A stretch of 64,000 bases of DNA from IMG/VR virus record IMGVR_UViG_3300009093_000039, positions 62,001 through 126,000 of that record, one strand, 5' to 3'. The DNA is from a virus. Below, piece after piece: positions 5,741-45,800 of the stretch; the stretch's first letter is position 1; every line of letters starts with the position of its first letter. Both the position numbers and the translations under genes were made by a program. Under the pieces are notes generated by a model. The model did not search any database. It saw nothing but the letters and a program-made list of their open reading frames with translations, and was not told where the DNA came from.

Positions 5741-6814
5741 ATGCGTACCCAAGTGAACATCCGCGCGGCCAAGTCGCCCGTGCTCGCCACCGACCTCCGC
5801 CCGGTCGACGGCGGCGAATCCTTCGTCGGCCGCTACCAAGGCTCCGGCAAGGGCGAGCTGAACGCCAGTTCGAAGCGCGACCTGCTCGAGCAGCAGCGCA
5901 AGTTCCTGACCGCAGCGTCGGCCGGCAACATGCTCGCGATCACGGCTTCCGAGTCGAAGGACCTGGTCCGTGCCGCGTTCAACAGCCCCGAGGCCCACCG
6001 CGTGCTCGGCGAGAAGATCAGCGAGTCGCTGTACATCACGGCGAACCGTCAGGGCTTCATGCGCAAGTACCTGGCCAAGATCGACGTCGAGATGGGCTCG
6101 ATCCCGCGCTTCCCGCTGCGCAACAAGAACGTGACCGCGGTCTGGTCCACCAGCCCGACCAAGGTCGAGTCGCAGATCACCCGCGACAAGTGGTTCACCC
6201 CGCCGGAACTGACGGTCGTGGCCCGTCCGTTCATCCCCCAGGTGGAACTGAACCAGTCCAGCGGCGACGTGCTGCAGGAGAAGTACATCGAGGCCGTCGA
6301 GGCCACGATGGTGGCGGAAGACCGCCTCTACTACAACCAGCTGCAGAGCCTGGTCGGCGTCGACAACAACCTGACCATCGTGTCGGGCCAGCTGACGCCG
6401 TACAGCCTGATGACGGTCGTGACCAACGTGACCCGCTGGGGTCTGAAGGGCGCGCACCTGCTGATGGCGACGGACCTGTGGCAGGACGTGGTCGGCAACT
6501 CCGACTTCTTCACCGCCATCGACCCGGTGGCCCGTCACGAGCTCCTGCTCACCGGCGAGCTGGGCACGATGTACGGCATGACCGTCACGTCGGACGCGTT
6601 CCGTCATCCGGAGCACAAGGTCCTGGGCCAAGGCGAGTTCTTCGTGATCTCGGACGCCCTGAACCACGGCGCGTACTCGGATCGCGGCGGCCTGCAATCG
6701 ACCCCGATCGACATCTCGATCGAGAAGATCCCGGGTCGCGGCTTCGTGCTGCACGAGGCCCTGGCCGTGTCGGTGGCGAACAGCCGCTCCTTCGCGAAGG
6801 GCTACCGCCTGTAA
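5741..6814 (+). CDS. Major capsid protein
   Basis: The 357-residue protein has the pattern of an HK97-fold capsid protein: a charged helical N-terminal arm, a long central region (about 110-260) with LTVVARPFIPQVEL and a helix EKYIEAVEATMVAEDRLYY resembling the long spine helix, and a C-terminal beta-rich segment. It is preceded by a strong tcaggag ribosome site and flanked by scaffold and decoration-like genes upstream and tail genes downstream. A hairpin follows, suggesting its own transcript end. Its N-terminal segment (NIRAAKSPVL) weakly echoes the tag of the small head-region proteins. Confidence 0.85.
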   Translation: MRTQVNIRAAKSPVLATDLRPVDGGESFVGRYQGSGKGELNASSKRDLLEQQRKFLTAASAGNMLAITASESKDLVRAAFNSPEAHRVLGEKISESLYITANRQGFMRKYLAKIDVEMGSIPRFPLRNKNVTAVWSTSPTKVESQITRDKWFTPPELTVVARPFIPQVELNQSSGDVLQEKYIEAVEATMVAEDRLYYNQLQSLVGVDNNLTIVSGQLTPYSLMTVVTNVTRWGLKGAHLLMATDLWQDVVGNSDFFTAIDPVARHELLLTGELGTMYGMTVTSDAFRHPEHKVLGQGEFFVISDALNHGAYSDRGGLQSTPIDISIEKIPGRGFVLHEALAVSVANSRSFAKGYRL

Positions 6815-11062: not shown

Positions 11063-11386
11063 ATGAAGTTGCACGCGAAGTCGCGGCTGCTGGCGTTGCA
11101 GGACCTCAAGACCCTGGGCCCGCGGCTGCTGGAAGTCCTGAAGGACACGTTCGAGACCGCTGACTTCGAGCTCACGCACAACGGGCGCCAGGAGATTAAG
11201 AGCAACGGCCGTCTCTCCGATGGCATGTTCAAGATCGGCGCCCGCGACCTGAACAAGCTGGTGTTCACCCACCTCGGCTACAAGATCGCGGACCACGGGT
11301 CCAAGATCACGTGGTCGAAGAAAGGCGAGCCCGGCTGGGTCATGGAGCACATCGGCGGCAAGGTCCACCTCCACGAGGAACTGTGA
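11063..11386 (+). CDS. Tagged small protein (MKLHAKSRL), unknown
   Basis: The 107-residue protein begins MKLHAKSRLLAL, one of the eight tagged proteins. The body is a small alpha/beta domain with GPRLLEVLKDTF and a C-terminal run rich in His, Lys and Gly. The ATG was chosen because it restores the tag; a longer in-frame reading upstream overlaps the tube gene. I infer packaging into the head by analogy with T4 internal proteins. Confidence 0.65.
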   Translation: MKLHAKSRLLALQDLKTLGPRLLEVLKDTFETADFELTHNGRQEIKSNGRLSDGMFKIGARDLNKLVFTHLGYKIADHGSKITWSKKGEPGWVMEHIGGKVHLHEEL

Positions 11387-11751
11387 TGAAGCTGCAGGCG
11401 AAGGCCAGACTGAGCTCGCTGATCTCCATCCTCGCCTCCGTCGTCAACACAACTGATCGGCCTCCGTCGACCTACATGGACGAAGCGGAGGCCGACCACC
11501 AGTTGCCGCGTGAAGACGAAGTCGACGATGAGTTGATCGGCAAGGGCATGGATGATGCCGACAACCCGGGTAACACCGGGTATCAGCCGGATGATGAGAA
11601 CCAGAACCTCATCAAGCAGAGTGACGCCGAGATCATGCACAGCGAACCCGGCCCCATCTCGATGGGCATGGGTCTCGGTGCTGGTCATCGACTTCTGTCG
11701 ACGGGTCCTCTGCAAGCCATGCCCGATCTCGGAGACTATCAGACCCTTTAA
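11386..11751 (+). CDS. Tagged acidic protein (MKLQAKARL), unknown
   Basis: The 121-residue protein begins MKLQAKARLSSL and shares one base with the upstream stop (TGATG). After about residue 30 it is Asp/Glu/Asn-rich and probably unstructured, ending in a Gly/Met-rich segment. It has no recognised domain. It belongs to the tagged set and may be internal to the head or removed during maturation. Confidence 0.6.
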   Translation: MKLQAKARLSSLISILASVVNTTDRPPSTYMDEAEADHQLPREDEVDDELIGKGMDDADNPGNTGYQPDDENQNLIKQSDAEIMHSEPGPISMGMGLGAGHRLLSTGPLQAMPDLGDYQTL

Positions 11752-12456: not shown

Positions 12457-13308
12457 ATGAAGCTGCAAGCCAAGTCCCGTCTGTTGGCGTTCGCGCCAAC
12501 GTCCGAGCTGACCGATGTGATCCGCACGCGGGTCGCTGAAGCGCTCCACAAGGTGGGGCTCAAGGTGCAGCCGCAGCACAGCGCCGGGATCTACCCCACC
12601 ATCCTGTACTTCGACTTCGAGTCCAGCTCGTGGGCCATCTCCATCGGTGAGGTCCAGCATGGCGTGGCACAGCTCTTCGTCGAGACGCCACGCGAGATCA
12701 CGAACGAAGCGCTGCGGCTCTTCACTCGCACCAAGAGCTGGGACGGTGTGGAGGCTGCGAACGAGCTGGTTCGACGTTGCCTCGCGATCCTGAAGAAGAC
12801 GGGCATCCACTTCGAGCTCGAGCAGCCGAACGTGATTCACAAGCTGGTGACGATCGCCGGCACGTTCCCGGTCCCGAAGCAGCTGAAAGCCGCCAAGCAA
12901 CAGCTGGCTTACCACTTCACCGAAGGCAAGAACGTGCGCAAGATCGAGCGCGAAGGCCTGAAGCTGACGAAAGAAGGCCAGGGCCTGTGGAAGGGCAGCC
13001 TCAAGTACGGCAAGCCCTCGATCTTCCTGACGATGTCGAAGAAGCCCGAAGTCGTGTCCCAGGTCATGGGCATGCTGCTGTCCAAGCGCTGGTCGCTGGA
13101 GGAGTGGGGCGAGTTCGATGAGTCGAAACTTCGTGCTGTCAACGCGCAGTATCGTGCGGTCACGATCGATCTCGCGAAGGTCCCCGGCGCGGTGCTGTAC
13201 CAGGACGAGCTGGTCGATGAGCCGGAGTTCAAGTTCATCACCGTGCCCGTGCCGCCCGAAGCCATCGTCTCCTTTTTCATGGTCGAACCCAACTGGTGGA
13301 ATGCCTGA
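12457..13308 (+). CDS. Tagged protein with ADP-ribosyltransferase-like C-terminal domain
   Basis: The 283-residue protein begins MKLQAKSRLLAF, the clearest copy of the shared tag. Residues about 148-275 read like an ADP-ribosyltransferase fold: H153 in AYHFTEGKNVRKIEREGL, then the strand SIFLTMSKK (188-196), the strand YRAVTIDLAKVPGAVLYQDE (232-251) and E257 in EPEFKF before VPVPPEAI. This is the H-aromatic-E order of DarT/tRNA phosphotransferase-like families. Residues 20-140 are unassigned. A packaged, tagged ART would parallel T4 Alt. If the fold is wrong it remains a tagged unknown. Confidence 0.55.
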   Translation: MKLQAKSRLLAFAPTSELTDVIRTRVAEALHKVGLKVQPQHSAGIYPTILYFDFESSSWAISIGEVQHGVAQLFVETPREITNEALRLFTRTKSWDGVEAANELVRRCLAILKKTGIHFELEQPNVIHKLVTIAGTFPVPKQLKAAKQQLAYHFTEGKNVRKIEREGLKLTKEGQGLWKGSLKYGKPSIFLTMSKKPEVVSQVMGMLLSKRWSLEEWGEFDESKLRAVNAQYRAVTIDLAKVPGAVLYQDELVDEPEFKFITVPVPPEAIVSFFMVEPNWWNA

Positions 13309-13309
13309 G

Positions 13310-14290
13310 ATGAAACTCGAAGCTGAGACGCGCCTCATGCTCATGGAGGCGGCCGACGTCACCTATGAGAAGTACGCGACAGTGGTCGAAGCCCTGGCGC
13401 GTGATCCGCACGAGCTGCAAGCCTTCGAGTTCAAGGTGCCGGGTGCACTGAAGAAGCTGTGGTCCGAGCTGAAGGAAGTCGGAGCACTGCTGGCCGAGTC
13501 GGCTCACATCGGCTGGGACTCCATCGTCCAGGCCTTCAAAGAGAAGTCGGTGTTCCGACTCCTGAAGGGTGTGGGCTTCTCGATCGCCAAGCTACTCAAG
13601 GCCGTCAAGAAGGCGATGGCACTTCCGGCGACCGCGTTGTTCGCGGCCTTCGATGATCTGATCGAGACCTTCGGTTCCTCGAAGTTGATGCAGCATCTCG
13701 ATGTCCACGAGCGCGTGAAGAAGCTGGACGAAGTGATCCATCGCCACCCGGTGCTGACCAAGGTCACGGGTCTTGCAGTCGCAGGTTTCCTCGTGTGGGG
13801 ATTCCTTCACGCGTCGTCGACCGGTGACGCAGACTACGACCTGGGCATCGTCGACGCGGTCATCAACTGCGTCAAGGGTGACTACAGCCTGGCCGACATG
13901 TTCGCCTCCAAGCAGGGCCTGAAGGACATCAGTGTCCTGCTGTTCGGTCTCGCGTCCGGTGGTCTCGGCATCACGGCCTACGGCGCCTCTCATGTGGAAG
14001 GACTGCTGCACTTCCTCGGCTCCCACTCGGGCGACGCTGCATCCCTCATGGTCGCGCTCTTCTACGCGGCGGCAAAGAAGCTGCACCTCAAGATCAACTA
14101 CGAGCACATGCCGCAGCCGCTGCACGGCGCGCTCGTCATCGATCCGAAGGAGCCGCACGGTCGGACCCACAAGTGGTTCCACTCGCTGCCTGCCGAGGAT
14201 CGCAAGGCCTACATGAAGAAATACCCGGGTACGAAATTCGGGCGCGAGCACAAGCTCATCCTCCCCAAGCATCAAGGAGCACACAAGTGA
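13310..14290 (+). CDS. Tagged membrane-associated protein, unknown
   Basis: The 326-residue protein begins MKLEAETRLMLM, a weaker form of the tag; an ATG three codons earlier (MPE...) is also possible. Residues 45-120 form amphipathic Lys/Leu/Ala helices. There are likely membrane segments at about 150-168 (VTGLAVAGFLVWGFLH) and 203-225, and a further hydrophobic helix at 240-255. The end is basic and His/Lys-rich. A virion protein that inserts into the host membrane at DNA entry is one reading. The next gene overlaps its stop by four bases. Confidence 0.6.
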   Translation: MKLEAETRLMLMEAADVTYEKYATVVEALARDPHELQAFEFKVPGALKKLWSELKEVGALLAESAHIGWDSIVQAFKEKSVFRLLKGVGFSIAKLLKAVKKAMALPATALFAAFDDLIETFGSSKLMQHLDVHERVKKLDEVIHRHPVLTKVTGLAVAGFLVWGFLHASSTGDADYDLGIVDAVINCVKGDYSLADMFASKQGLKDISVLLFGLASGGLGITAYGASHVEGLLHFLGSHSGDAASLMVALFYAAAKKLHLKINYEHMPQPLHGALVIDPKEPHGRTHKWFHSLPAEDRKAYMKKYPGTKFGREHKLILPKHQGAHK

Positions 14291-15433: not shown

Positions 15434-15733
15434 ATGGAAATCCAACTGCAAGCGAAGGCGCGACTCTCGGCTTTCAAGATCATGGCCGACGACATGCCGG
15501 ATCACCTCAAGCACCTCGCGCAGTCGATGGCGCAGAAGCTGGGCGTCGGCCTCAAGGGCGTCGAGCGTCTCGGCACCGACGAAGCCGCGATCTACTTCGA
15601 GGCGCCGTTCAAGCCCGAGGCTCTGGAAAAGGTCCCGCACAAGGGACGCCAGTACTACCCGGACGGCAACGGCGAGTACCTGGAGATCGAGCACTGGTTC
15701 CAGAAGGAATCGATCCTCTACGTCGCGCTCTAA
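15434..15733 (+). CDS. Tagged small protein (IQLQAKARL), unknown
   Basis: The 99-residue protein begins MEIQLQAKARLSAF. It has a helical first half (MPDHLKHLAQSMAQKLGVGL) and a beta-rich second half. The ATG at 15434 was chosen because it gives the tag and follows gcggagaac. It is the seventh tagged protein along the window and lies directly before the eighth. Confidence 0.65.
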   Translation: MEIQLQAKARLSAFKIMADDMPDHLKHLAQSMAQKLGVGLKGVERLGTDEAAIYFEAPFKPEALEKVPHKGRQYYPDGNGEYLEIEHWFQKESILYVAL

Positions 15734-15743
15734 GGAGAACGAG

Positions 15744-16211
15744 ATGGACATCCAAGCGAAGGCCCGGCTGCAGGAAATGCAGCGACTCGAGGCCAAGCCG
15801 CAGGGTTCTGCCGAGGACGCGAAGGCGGCCGTCGAGCAGGCCTTCGCGTCCTCCGGTCTGAAGGTCAAGATCGAGGTCGATGCCTGGGGTGACCTGGCCT
15901 GTTCGTGCGAAGTCACGTTCGGCGAGAACCGAGTCGTCACGTTCGACATCAGTCTCAACGAAAAGGGCAAGGGTTCCAAGTCTCTCGACCTGGACTTCAG
16001 CGCCAAGCCGGAGCTGAGCTTCAGCGAGCACATGGAAGATGTGGTGTACGGCATCGACCAGAAGGAGATCGCTGACATCGGCAAGATCATCAACTACGCG
16101 GAAGGATTCGCGCAGCGGGTGGACAAGGAGGTCGAAGCCTACACCGCCTGGTGGATGAAGTTCAGCCTGGCGCTGCGCAAGCTCAACCAGTTGTCCGAGG
16201 ACAATAAGTGA
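15744..16211 (+). CDS. Tagged small protein (IQAKARL), unknown
   Basis: The 155-residue protein begins MDIQAKARLQEM and follows a strong aaggag site. Residues 25-115 look like a compact alpha/beta domain (LKVKIEVDAWGDLACSCEVTFG), followed by a helical C-terminus. It has no recognised family. It overlaps the next start by four bases. Confidence 0.65.
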   Translation: MDIQAKARLQEMQRLEAKPQGSAEDAKAAVEQAFASSGLKVKIEVDAWGDLACSCEVTFGENRVVTFDISLNEKGKGSKSLDLDFSAKPELSFSEHMEDVVYGIDQKEIADIGKIINYAEGFAQRVDKEVEAYTAWWMKFSLALRKLNQLSEDNK

Positions 16212-16757: not shown

Positions 16758-18164
16758 TCAGGTGCCCGTGCGATGCAGCGGAACCACGTTTTCGGCGCCC
16801 GCGTTCTTGCGGCCGAAACCGGCCTTGCGCTCCAGCGCGACGTGGATGCACGCGGCCTGGAACTGCGCGGCCGTCGTATCCACGTTCGCGGCCACGAGCT
16901 CTTCGATCATGTCCGGCGCCGTGTCGTTGAGCGTGTAGTTCGCGATGTCACGACGTTGCTTCTCGGTCGTGTTGCCCATGTGCAGGATGTGGTCGATGCG
17001 ACCCGGTCGTGTCGGCCTGCCCTGTTCATCGAGGCGTCCGAGGGCCGGGTCGACGTGCTCGATGTGGTTCGTCGTCACCATGAGCAAGATCCCCGACTTC
17101 GAACTGATGCCACTGATCTGGTTCAGCACGCACTCGAAGCTCAGGCTCTTGTGGACCGTGACACACTCGCGTCCGTGGAACACGGTGTCGAAGTCCTCGA
17201 GCGCGACCACGCACGGCGTCTCCATCTCACCCCACTTGGTGACGAAGTCACGGTCGTTGAAGGTGTTGAGGTAGTACTGGTAGAGAGGGATGCCGAGTTC
17301 CATCGCCACGGCCTTGGACAGGCTCGACTTGCCGGTGCCGCCGGGACCTTCTGTCAGGACACCCGTGCGCCAGGGCACGTTGTGTTCCTCGTACCACGTG
17401 CGCTCGTTGTACCAGGACTTCAGGGTCTCGATCATCGCGTAGACCTCTTCCGGGTAGAAGAGGCCCTTGAACGGATCGACTCGCCCTTGGTCCTTCAAGT
17501 ACTCGTCGCGCGCGTACATGAACGACTCGTCGAAGCGCAGGTCCGGATCGATCCACCAGTCGTCTTCGCTCTTCAGCCCGCCAGAATTCGGAGCCGGCGA
17601 GACCGATGTGCTGGCCTCACTGGAGCGATCACGTTTGAAGAGGTCGGACATGGCCTCGCCGACAGTTCCCATGACCGGGACGACACGGAAGTTCGATGCA
17701 CGTGCCGCCTCTTTCAGGTAGTCGGCATTGCGTCGCGTGTTCGAGGTCTTGATGGCGTCGGCGATCAAGCCCTTCGGGTCAGAGAAGCCGCGCAACGACA
17801 GGAGCTTGAGCCCTCCGTCGACATTGACGAAGAAGATGCCTCGGGGTCCACGCCAGACACCGGCTGAGCCATGCATCTCGAACGGTACGTCCGACCACAG
17901 AGCGTCGCCCTCGATCTTGGCGCTGACGTGGGTGAAGATCATGGAGCCCGACGGCAGCGGCTTGTAGTGCTCGCGGATGTACTTGCCGACGATTCGGCTC
18001 ATGTAACGACCTTCGATCCGGCGGTGAAGCACGAGAGCGCTGGAGATGTACGAGCCGAAGCTCTTGACGCGAGACCAGCCGGCAGCGATGACAGCGAATA
18101 CAGCCATGAGGCCGGTACCGGTCGCCAGCTGGTGCAGCGGCGAACCGTGAGAGAAGAAGTCCAT
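16758..18164 (-). CDS. BCS1-like AAA+ ATPase with N-terminal membrane segment
   Basis: The 468-residue protein has one likely membrane segment (about 16-30), then a BCS1_N-like region, then an AAA+ module: Walker A GPGGTGKS (273-280), Walker B VVALEDFD (319-326), a sensor TTNH (364-367) and the RPGRID box (386-391) typical of BCS1. BCS1 proteins move folded substrates across membranes in mitochondria; phage and bacterial members are uncharacterised. It is the last gene of the leftward unit. The task in infection is unknown. Confidence 0.8.
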   Translation of the reverse strand: MDFFSHGSPLHQLATGTGLMAVFAVIAAGWSRVKSFGSYISSALVLHRRIEGRYMSRIVGKYIREHYKPLPSGSMIFTHVSAKIEGDALWSDVPFEMHGSAGVWRGPRGIFFVNVDGGLKLLSLRGFSDPKGLIADAIKTSNTRRNADYLKEAARASNFRVVPVMGTVGEAMSDLFKRDRSSEASTSVSPAPNSGGLKSEDDWWIDPDLRFDESFMYARDEYLKDQGRVDPFKGLFYPEEVYAMIETLKSWYNERTWYEEHNVPWRTGVLTEGPGGTGKSSLSKAVAMELGIPLYQYYLNTFNDRDFVTKWGEMETPCVVALEDFDTVFHGRECVTVHKSLSFECVLNQISGISSKSGILLMVTTNHIEHVDPALGRLDEQGRPTRPGRIDHILHMGNTTEKQRRDIANYTLNDTAPDMIEELVAANVDTTAAQFQAACIHVALERKAGFGRKNAGAENVVPLHRTGT

Positions 18165-42892: not shown

Positions 42893-45800
42893 ATGAGCCA
42901 CATCCAGATCACGGACGCCGGCGTCGCCCTCATGGCAGCGTCGGAGTCGCCCATCGTGCTGACGAGCTACAAGCTCGGCTCCGCATACGGCTACATCCCA
43001 ACCGCGGGTCAAACCGCACTGCAAGGCTCGGTCGTCGCCACTGGGGTCCCGGGTGCCCCGGTGATCCAGACCTCGAACACGGTCCTGTATCCGACGCTGC
43101 TGGGTCAGAGCGATGGCCCGTACACCTTCGGTGAGATCGGCTACTACTACGGGTCGACGCTGTTCGCCGTCCTGGTGCTCGACACGCTGGTGACAAAGAC
43201 TCCGCTCGACGTCAACACCAACGCGGGTGGTGCGATTGTCATCGACGCGTTCGTCCCCATGGTGGGATCGAACTACCAGATGTGGGCGAACGTCAGCCAG
43301 TCCAACATCAACAAGGTGAGCGTCGCTGCCGGCCCGGAAGCCCTGCCCTACAGCGTCAACTCGAACCCGAACGTCTTCATCGTCCAGGCGTACGGCAGTG
43401 CCAAGCCATTCCTGGCCTACACCGACCGCCTGGGTCTCTGGACCTTCGACGCCTACGACAAGAGCAACGACGTCGTCACCGTCGGCAACAGTGTCACCGC
43501 CGTCACCATCACTCTCAGCGACTACGGGTCGCTGAACTTCACTACGGTCGGGTCTCTGCTGCTCCAGTTCCAGGACGGCATCAACGCTGCGGCTGTCCGC
43601 TACGTGACGGCGGCGACACCTGACGGCCATGGCAACATGGTCCTGACGCTGAACGCTCCGCTGACTCGTGCGTCGAACAACGGCGACCGCCTGGGCATCT
43701 ACGTCCCGACCACGACCGTCATCAACGAGGGTGGCGGTGGCGGTCAGGACCTGACCAACCTGCCGCACATCCCCAGTCTGCCGTCGACCAGCGCGCAGAT
43801 GCCGGTCGTCATCAACGGCACGGTCTACCAGTGGAACCTGGGCGAGCTCACGACCTGGCTCTCGCAGCAAGGCTTCAATCGTCCGCCCACGGGCACCGAC
43901 TACACGGTCGGTACGCTCGACTCGGCAGGTCAGCTCACGGGCAACCTGTACTCGACGATCTCGGACCCGGATGCCGATCCGCTGACGCTGCAGACCATCG
44001 GCTACACGAACGACGGTGGTGCCTTCACCACCTACGACCCGACCCAGGGTTCTGTGCAGCTGACCCTCGGCGTCTTCTTCGTCGATCCGACATCCGGCAA
44101 CTGGACGTTCACGCTGGGCCAGGGTGCGCGTGCGCTCAACACGGGCGACATCGGGCACGAGATCATCACCTACGTGATGGCCGACGGCAAGGGTGGCATC
44201 CGCACCAACCACCTGACCATCACGGTCACAGGCACGAACCAGGCGCCGATCGTCTCGTTCGTCAACAGCGGCACGCCAACGAACACGACGGTCAGCGGCA
44301 ACCTGATCTACCGCCTGGCCTTCGACTACGAGACCACGCCCTCGATCGCAGGCTACACGGTCGCCGGCATGACCGGCACGTTCACGGGCACGACCACCAT
44401 CACGGTCGGGTCCACGACCTACGGCCAGATCAGCATCGCTTCGGACGGCACGTGGTCGTTCGCTCCCGCACAGGACTACGTGGGTCCGGTTCCGACCGTG
44501 ACCTATAACGTGACCGACGGTGTCAATGTCGTCCCGTCGTACCTGACGCTCGCCGTCACGCCCATGATCTCCGGCTCGCAACCGCAGATTCTCGGTACTG
44601 ACGTCGTGGCTGGTCCGACGACCGGCGGTGAGAACAACCAGGGCATGTACCTGACGATTTACGGTCGTCGTTTCGGCCCCAACTCGGGCATCGGCACCAA
44701 CACCAAGGTCTTCATCGGTGGCGTCGAAGTCGTTCACTACATCCAGATGGTGGACGATCAGCTGGCTCCGAAGTTCAGCGGCCTGCAACGCATCGACGTG
44801 CGCGTCGGCGCTCTCGGGTCTCCGGTTCAGGGTGAAGCCCTCCACATCAAGGTCACCTACGGCGGCCAGGACTCGAACCAGGACTTCACGTTCACGCCGA
44901 ACCCGGGTCGCTTCCTCTACGTCTCGCACGCGGGCAACGACACGACTGCGGTCGTCGGCGACATCACGCATCCGTTCCGAATGCTCCAGTATCCGACACG
45001 GACGCAGCGCTCGGTCTACACCGAACTCCTGGCTGGTGACACCGTCATCATCATGGACTCGGACGGCCAGCCGTGGACCGACATCGGGTACAACTCGACG
45101 TGGTTCCGCTTCCGTGACCCGCAACAACAGGGCAAGGCCCCGACCGGCCAAGCTGGTACCGGCTGGATGACCTTCAAGGGTTACCCCGGCCAGTACATCC
45201 ACTACATCACGACCGGCAACGATCTGGCGGGTGGTCTCCAAGGTCCGGGCTCTGCCTTCACTGGCACGTGCGGTGACTGGGTGGCGGTGTCGAACCTCAA
45301 CATGGAGGTTCAAGGTGGATCGCGGCGCGATGCTGGCCCGATCAACATGCAGTACAACTCGGAGCGCTGGCGCATCACGGGTTGCAACCTCGGTCCCTGG
45401 GTCGCGGGTAGCTCCGCAGTTCTGAACGCGGCATGCATCACGGGTGAAGGCAACTTCATCTACATCGCGTTCAACAAGATGCACGACATCGAGGGAACGT
45501 CGGCACTACAGAACCACGGCATCTACGCGGGCACGACCAGCTACGGCTGGGAGATCTGCTTCAACTGGATCACCAACTGCATCGGTGGCTCGCACATCCA
45601 GTTCAACGACTCGGACGGCGGCACCAACATCTTCCAGACGCCCTACGGTGTGTGGACCGGCTTCACCAACATCAAGATCCACCACAACTGGCTGGACACG
45701 AGCGCGAAGTACGGCATCCTCTTCGCCGACATCAACACCGGCAACGGTGGTCAGCTCGACTTCCTGGTCTGGAACAACATCATCCTCAACACGGGGCTGG

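Follow-up and report, generated by a model that had tools for sequence, protein, structure and literature searches.

The locus and its shared N-terminal tag

The gene at 12457–13308 (+ strand) of the window, by which we mean the whole stretch of 64,000 nucleotides analysed here (bases 62001–126000 of a 139,364-base virus record), encodes a 283 aa protein from an ATG start. The protein displays a tag at its N terminus (MKLQAKSRLLA, residues 1–11, 12457–12489), followed by an N-terminal domain whose fold has no assignment (residues 12–125, 12490–12831) and by a predicted ADP-ribosyltransferase (ART) fold (residues 140–283, 12874–13305), all on the + strand. The ORF is genuine and under purifying selection: the gene also occurs in two other contigs, and comparison of the window with either of them gives 12 synonymous differences and 1 nonsynonymous one, while those two contigs differ from each other by 10 and 0.

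The source of the window is a soil jumbo-type phage whose tail sheath shares 51% identity with its counterpart in Burkholderia phage BcepSaruman and 47% with that in Achromobacter phage Motura; judged by this identity, the gene is therefore carried by a Sarumanvirus/Moturavirus-like myophage, the host of which is probably a member of the Burkholderiales. Structural order is kept in the window, with the head maturation protease (1263–2051, + strand; phrog_18299, E 4.8e-77), the major head protein (5741–6814), the sheath and the tube, and gene 12457–13308 sits in a cluster downstream of the tail tube gene. Other tagged genes, all on the + strand, are found directly after the protease gene (2056–2424, tag MTKLQAKSRLVA), at 2434–2697, where a small protein carries extra internal tag-like stretches (PVARLGN and MKVGAVARLKN), next to the ART-fold gene (13310–14290, a tagged 326 aa protein) and, according to the list of tagged proteins, at 11063–11386, 11386–11751, 15434–15733 and 15744–16211. 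The gene content of this tagged cluster differs between related phages, and contigs L012 (G002) and L013 have no such ART-fold gene at the corresponding cluster position. An AAA ATPase gene also lies beside the tagged cluster (16758–18164, − strand; PF00004, E 1.2e-10); it may be BCS1-like, a type for which a role in transferring folded proteins to the inside of heads has been suggested (PMC7824862).

The preliminary description of this DNA had proposed that the N-terminal stretch is a tag, and its positional enrichment in three related genomes goes well beyond chance. When the motif L-x-A-[KERAS]-x-R-[LIM] was searched in ORFs that begin with ATG and span 60 aa or more, it was observed near ORF starts 11, 10 and 12 times, against 0.2, 0.1 and 0.47 expected from the internal frequency of the motif. 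The tag is present on about 15 proteins in the phage of the window and on 11 and about 15 proteins in two relatives, counting proteins encoded on the structural-gene strand and in the structural part of the record. The 41 listed proteins, including one that fits poorly and is probably untagged (G002 82457), give the consensus M(x)n-L-Q-A-K-[SQA]-R-L-L-A, and tag-like N termini are present in BcepSaruman and Motura also. The bodies behind the tag are diverse and the majority have no known domain, so that a short N-terminal sequence is common to many otherwise unrelated proteins, the feature looked for in capsid targeting of the T4 type. A search restricted to open-licence papers returned no description of this tag.

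Residues 12–125 of the ART-fold protein are homologous to residues 7–134 of another tagged protein (L011:14924–15619, G001; BLASTP E 2e-10, with a match over residues 3–125), the C terminus of which is unrelated to the ART-fold payload. By this homology the protein is modular, with a tag, an N-terminal domain and a separate payload (residues 140–283). A profile of the N-terminal domain found no additional member among the remaining tagged proteins.

Evidence for an ART fold and its catalytic residues

Pfam, NCBIfam and PADLOC assigned no family at its cut-off to the protein. PF01885 (KptA) gave no match, the DarT family PF14487 is absent from the Pfam results, NCBIfam NF002013 scored 11.6–12.7 bits against a cut-off of 231, and Gp44_lid, YnfE and similar Pfam matches, far under cut-off, were rejected. 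The only sequence-library matches, weak ones to KptA (E 0.07) and DUF7002 (E 0.27), coincide with the H motif. When the domain was compared by tblastn with phage and plasmid sequences at E up to 10, chance matches only were obtained, and a scan of genome contigs returned no relative. L003, which an initial scan had matched weakly, was set aside as a different kind of contig. True DarT proteins also give weak matches to PF22531 (DUF7002), almost always over the H motif, and the DUF7002 family may itself be an ART.

The first motif (YHFTEGKNVRKIEREGL, 12910–12960, + strand) includes H153, and 2.9 million IMG/VR viral contigs were scanned for sequences that encode YHFTxxxNxxxIxxxG with L or F as the next residue. 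Among 20 of the resulting proteins run through Pfam, eight have an above-cut-off domain over the motif, DarT in every case; the remaining proteins display weak KptA, PARP, HYD1 or ART-PolyVal matches, and several scan proteins carry the further motifs of the query too. A pattern lacking the leading Y had several non-ART matches and was discarded for this reason. These further motifs, all on the + strand, are SIFLT with its aromatic F190 (13018–13032), aligned with VYLF or VYLT of relatives, the core strand AVTIDL (13156–13173), aligned with LLTID and similar segments, and the third motif (EFKFITVPVPPEAI, 13225–13266), which includes E257 and K259 and is aligned with YEYISYEPIPPSNI and its like, the register of the catalytic position being uncertain.

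With an HMM that covered the sequence after motif 1, the query ranked just 49th of 3983 (top 1.2 percent), and blocks downstream of the H motif were used instead because of this result. The blocks were built from up to eight scan proteins and an L047-related protein, with the query left out, and were chosen by eye, the query being known at that stage; on these terms the query scored 27.8, a value matched by 1 of 5000 shuffles (p = 0.0002) and by none of 2740 natural phage segments. The AlphaFold model from the single sequence was uninformative (pLDDT 32), and the model from the query with four ART-like proteins reached pLDDT 68 and pTM 0.67; alignments A2 and A5, in which motif 2 was misplaced, were left out. 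Foldseek of this model against the PDB gave 18 matches at E ≤ 0.001, all of them Tpt1/KptA (best E 9e-6), with DarT1 next, and a second structure aligner gave Z 9.9 for KptA (94 residues, 2.6 Å) and Z about 7 for DarT, Scabin and other ARTs. Among the viral structure matches are DarT, KptA and phage proteins with no name, and a five-sequence profile searched against all PDB sequences had KptA and DarT1 as its sole matches at E below 0.01. Model and profile both depend on motif 1, because the alignment was chosen by the H motif, so that the model supports the ART fold with moderate strength; the block test is the more independent line. Taken together, structure prediction, fold search and motifs indicate that the payload very probably adopts an ART fold, as the preliminary description had suggested.

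That description had also read the residues in the order of an H-Y/F-E triad, and the order is correct: H153 within YHFT (152–155), SIFLT (188–192), E257 as the first residue of EFKFIT, and PPEAI (266–270). H153 in YHFT is the motif 1 histidine of the H-Y-E and H-H-h clades, and both it and F190 stand at the expected ART places. A catalytic role of E257 is less certain. This residue lies nine residues ahead of the first P of PPEAI, while the glutamate of the DarT protein L066 and of L063 lies eight ahead, a place taken in the query by F258; in the gapped A3 alignment it is K259 that falls under the glutamate of L047. E257 is thus one or two residues out of register, and an H-F-E reading of the residues is possible. 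Since several relatives also have no acid at the motif 3 position, the domain could be a degenerate ART fold that has lost its catalytic acid and its transferase activity, and that binds nucleic acid or ADP-ribose or forms a structural part of the head. We hold this to be unlikely, as KptA is active although it has no motif 3 glutamate, and as the protein, H153 included, is kept by purifying selection.

Probable packaging of the tagged proteins

Tagged enzymes are also encoded elsewhere in this lineage. Nudix hydrolases bear the tag in all three related phages (L019:5482–6441, record base 45482; L036:2727–3710; L043:19005–19742; E 1.8e-17, 3.6e-15 and 3.2e-19), the Nudix part being C-terminal and preceded by ~115–195 residues that have no assignment, and RNase_T-type exonucleases bear it in two of the three (L019:2127–2771; L043:15928–16524). 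Such co-tagging favours a packaged enzyme set. Altogether, the explanation that we prefer, and consider fairly probable, is that the tag directs modular cargo to the prohead and that the ART-fold protein is an enzyme of the KptA/DarT side, injected and NAD+-using, which shares the head with two other packaged enzymes, a Nudix hydrolase and an exonuclease of the RNase_T type. The 11-residue tag would bring the protein, and roughly a dozen more that carry it, to the prohead core, and the residues after the tag would act as a carrier or regulatory domain. Enclosed in the head and perhaps trimmed, the protein would enter the bacterium along with the phage DNA, where its C-terminal 145 residues would use NAD+ to ADP-ribosylate a protein or a nucleic acid of the host, within the packaged set.

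That the protein is packaged and injected is probable, given the tag it has in common with other proteins, the genes around it and the analogy with T4. In that phage IPIII needs no more than its first ten residues to be packaged, and fusion proteins are delivered as well (PMC9026906; see also PMC5694885). The location of the ART-fold cluster downstream of the tail tube gene would also suit a signal for tail or baseplate assembly, or for another late step, instead of head targeting, with the ART acting late in the producing cell. This is rather improbable, given that the head protease gene has other tagged genes beside it and that the tagged proteins include Nudix and RNase_T enzymes, not tail parts.

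The proposed tag-directed packaging of the ART-fold protein invites comparison with Alt of T4, which is packaged by an N-terminal propeptide and is a member of the R-S-E clade. Alt is a phage ART and the protein described here a predicted one, each with a short N-terminal signal, and entry with the DNA is what we infer for the protein described here; in contrast, its tag sequence is unlike that of T4 and it has an extra N-terminal domain of other origin. The ART type differs as well, the nearest solved relatives of the model being Tpt1/KptA and DarT, so that both differences from T4 anticipated in the preliminary description are borne out. DarT (PF14487) shares the YHFT...N...I...GL H motif, IPxxxI in the third motif and the fold match, whereas the phage protein has no Pfam DarT match and the alignment of the DarT glutamate is uncertain. 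Tpt1/KptA provides the closest fold together with the H motif and the best profile matches, and jumbo phages encode KptA (PMC9503650); yet a KptA-type RNA 2'-phosphotransferase for RNA repair, packaged or not, is very improbable, since PF01885 does not match, no N-terminal lobe of the KptA kind is recognised, residues 12–125 being part of another domain family, and nothing in the GKPSIFLTMS of the query corresponds to the RxHVHLS element, RHYVHLS in E. coli KptA.

MuF- or portal-fused and polyvalent phage ARTs (PMC9503650) are likewise sent in with the phage, as would be the protein studied here, but what packages them is their fusion with a structural protein or a giant injected one, a task that in this lineage seems to fall to a short tag common to many proteins. 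The concept is not new, because packaged ARTs and Nudix proteins have been broadly predicted in myophages (PMC9503650); what is new is the tag and the modular layout in this lineage.

Tags in other viral contigs

The tagged 326 aa protein has homologs in three contigs (31–32% identity) that start with MISFKEYNE or MLSFKEYNE, N termini which we take to resemble the T4 capsid targeting sequence, and one of these contigs has further proteins with similar N termini (MITFSQYIQE and MLRFRSFIQE). The ART-like proteins L047, L049, L089 and L088, from unrelated contigs, start with MIKLKDIL, MIKLTDLL or VIKLKDIL (pattern MIKL[KT]D[IL]L). Neighbouring genes have this type of start too, nine in one 75-kb contig and three in an 11-kb contig, while a reversed-pattern control gave zero. 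Thus, on the basis of these N termini, tagged ARTs may have arisen more than once. Tentatively, a head tag proper to the lineage and unlike that of T4 could load an exchangeable cargo of ART, Nudix, exonuclease and many domains that have no assignment, the same cargo families using other tags in other phages, which would amount to a general and convergently evolved form of delivery.

Short tags that mark cargo would let injected phage proteins, mostly lacking an assigned function, be listed from sequence, and some forty candidates in the three phages could be tested together, provided that the tag has the proposed function. T4 Alt is the one case studied in depth, and a packaged ART of the KptA/DarT side, if confirmed, would add to it. 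In the contigs of L089, L086 (L047) and L049, several genes each start with MIKLKDIL.E or close variants, which form a separate tag family.
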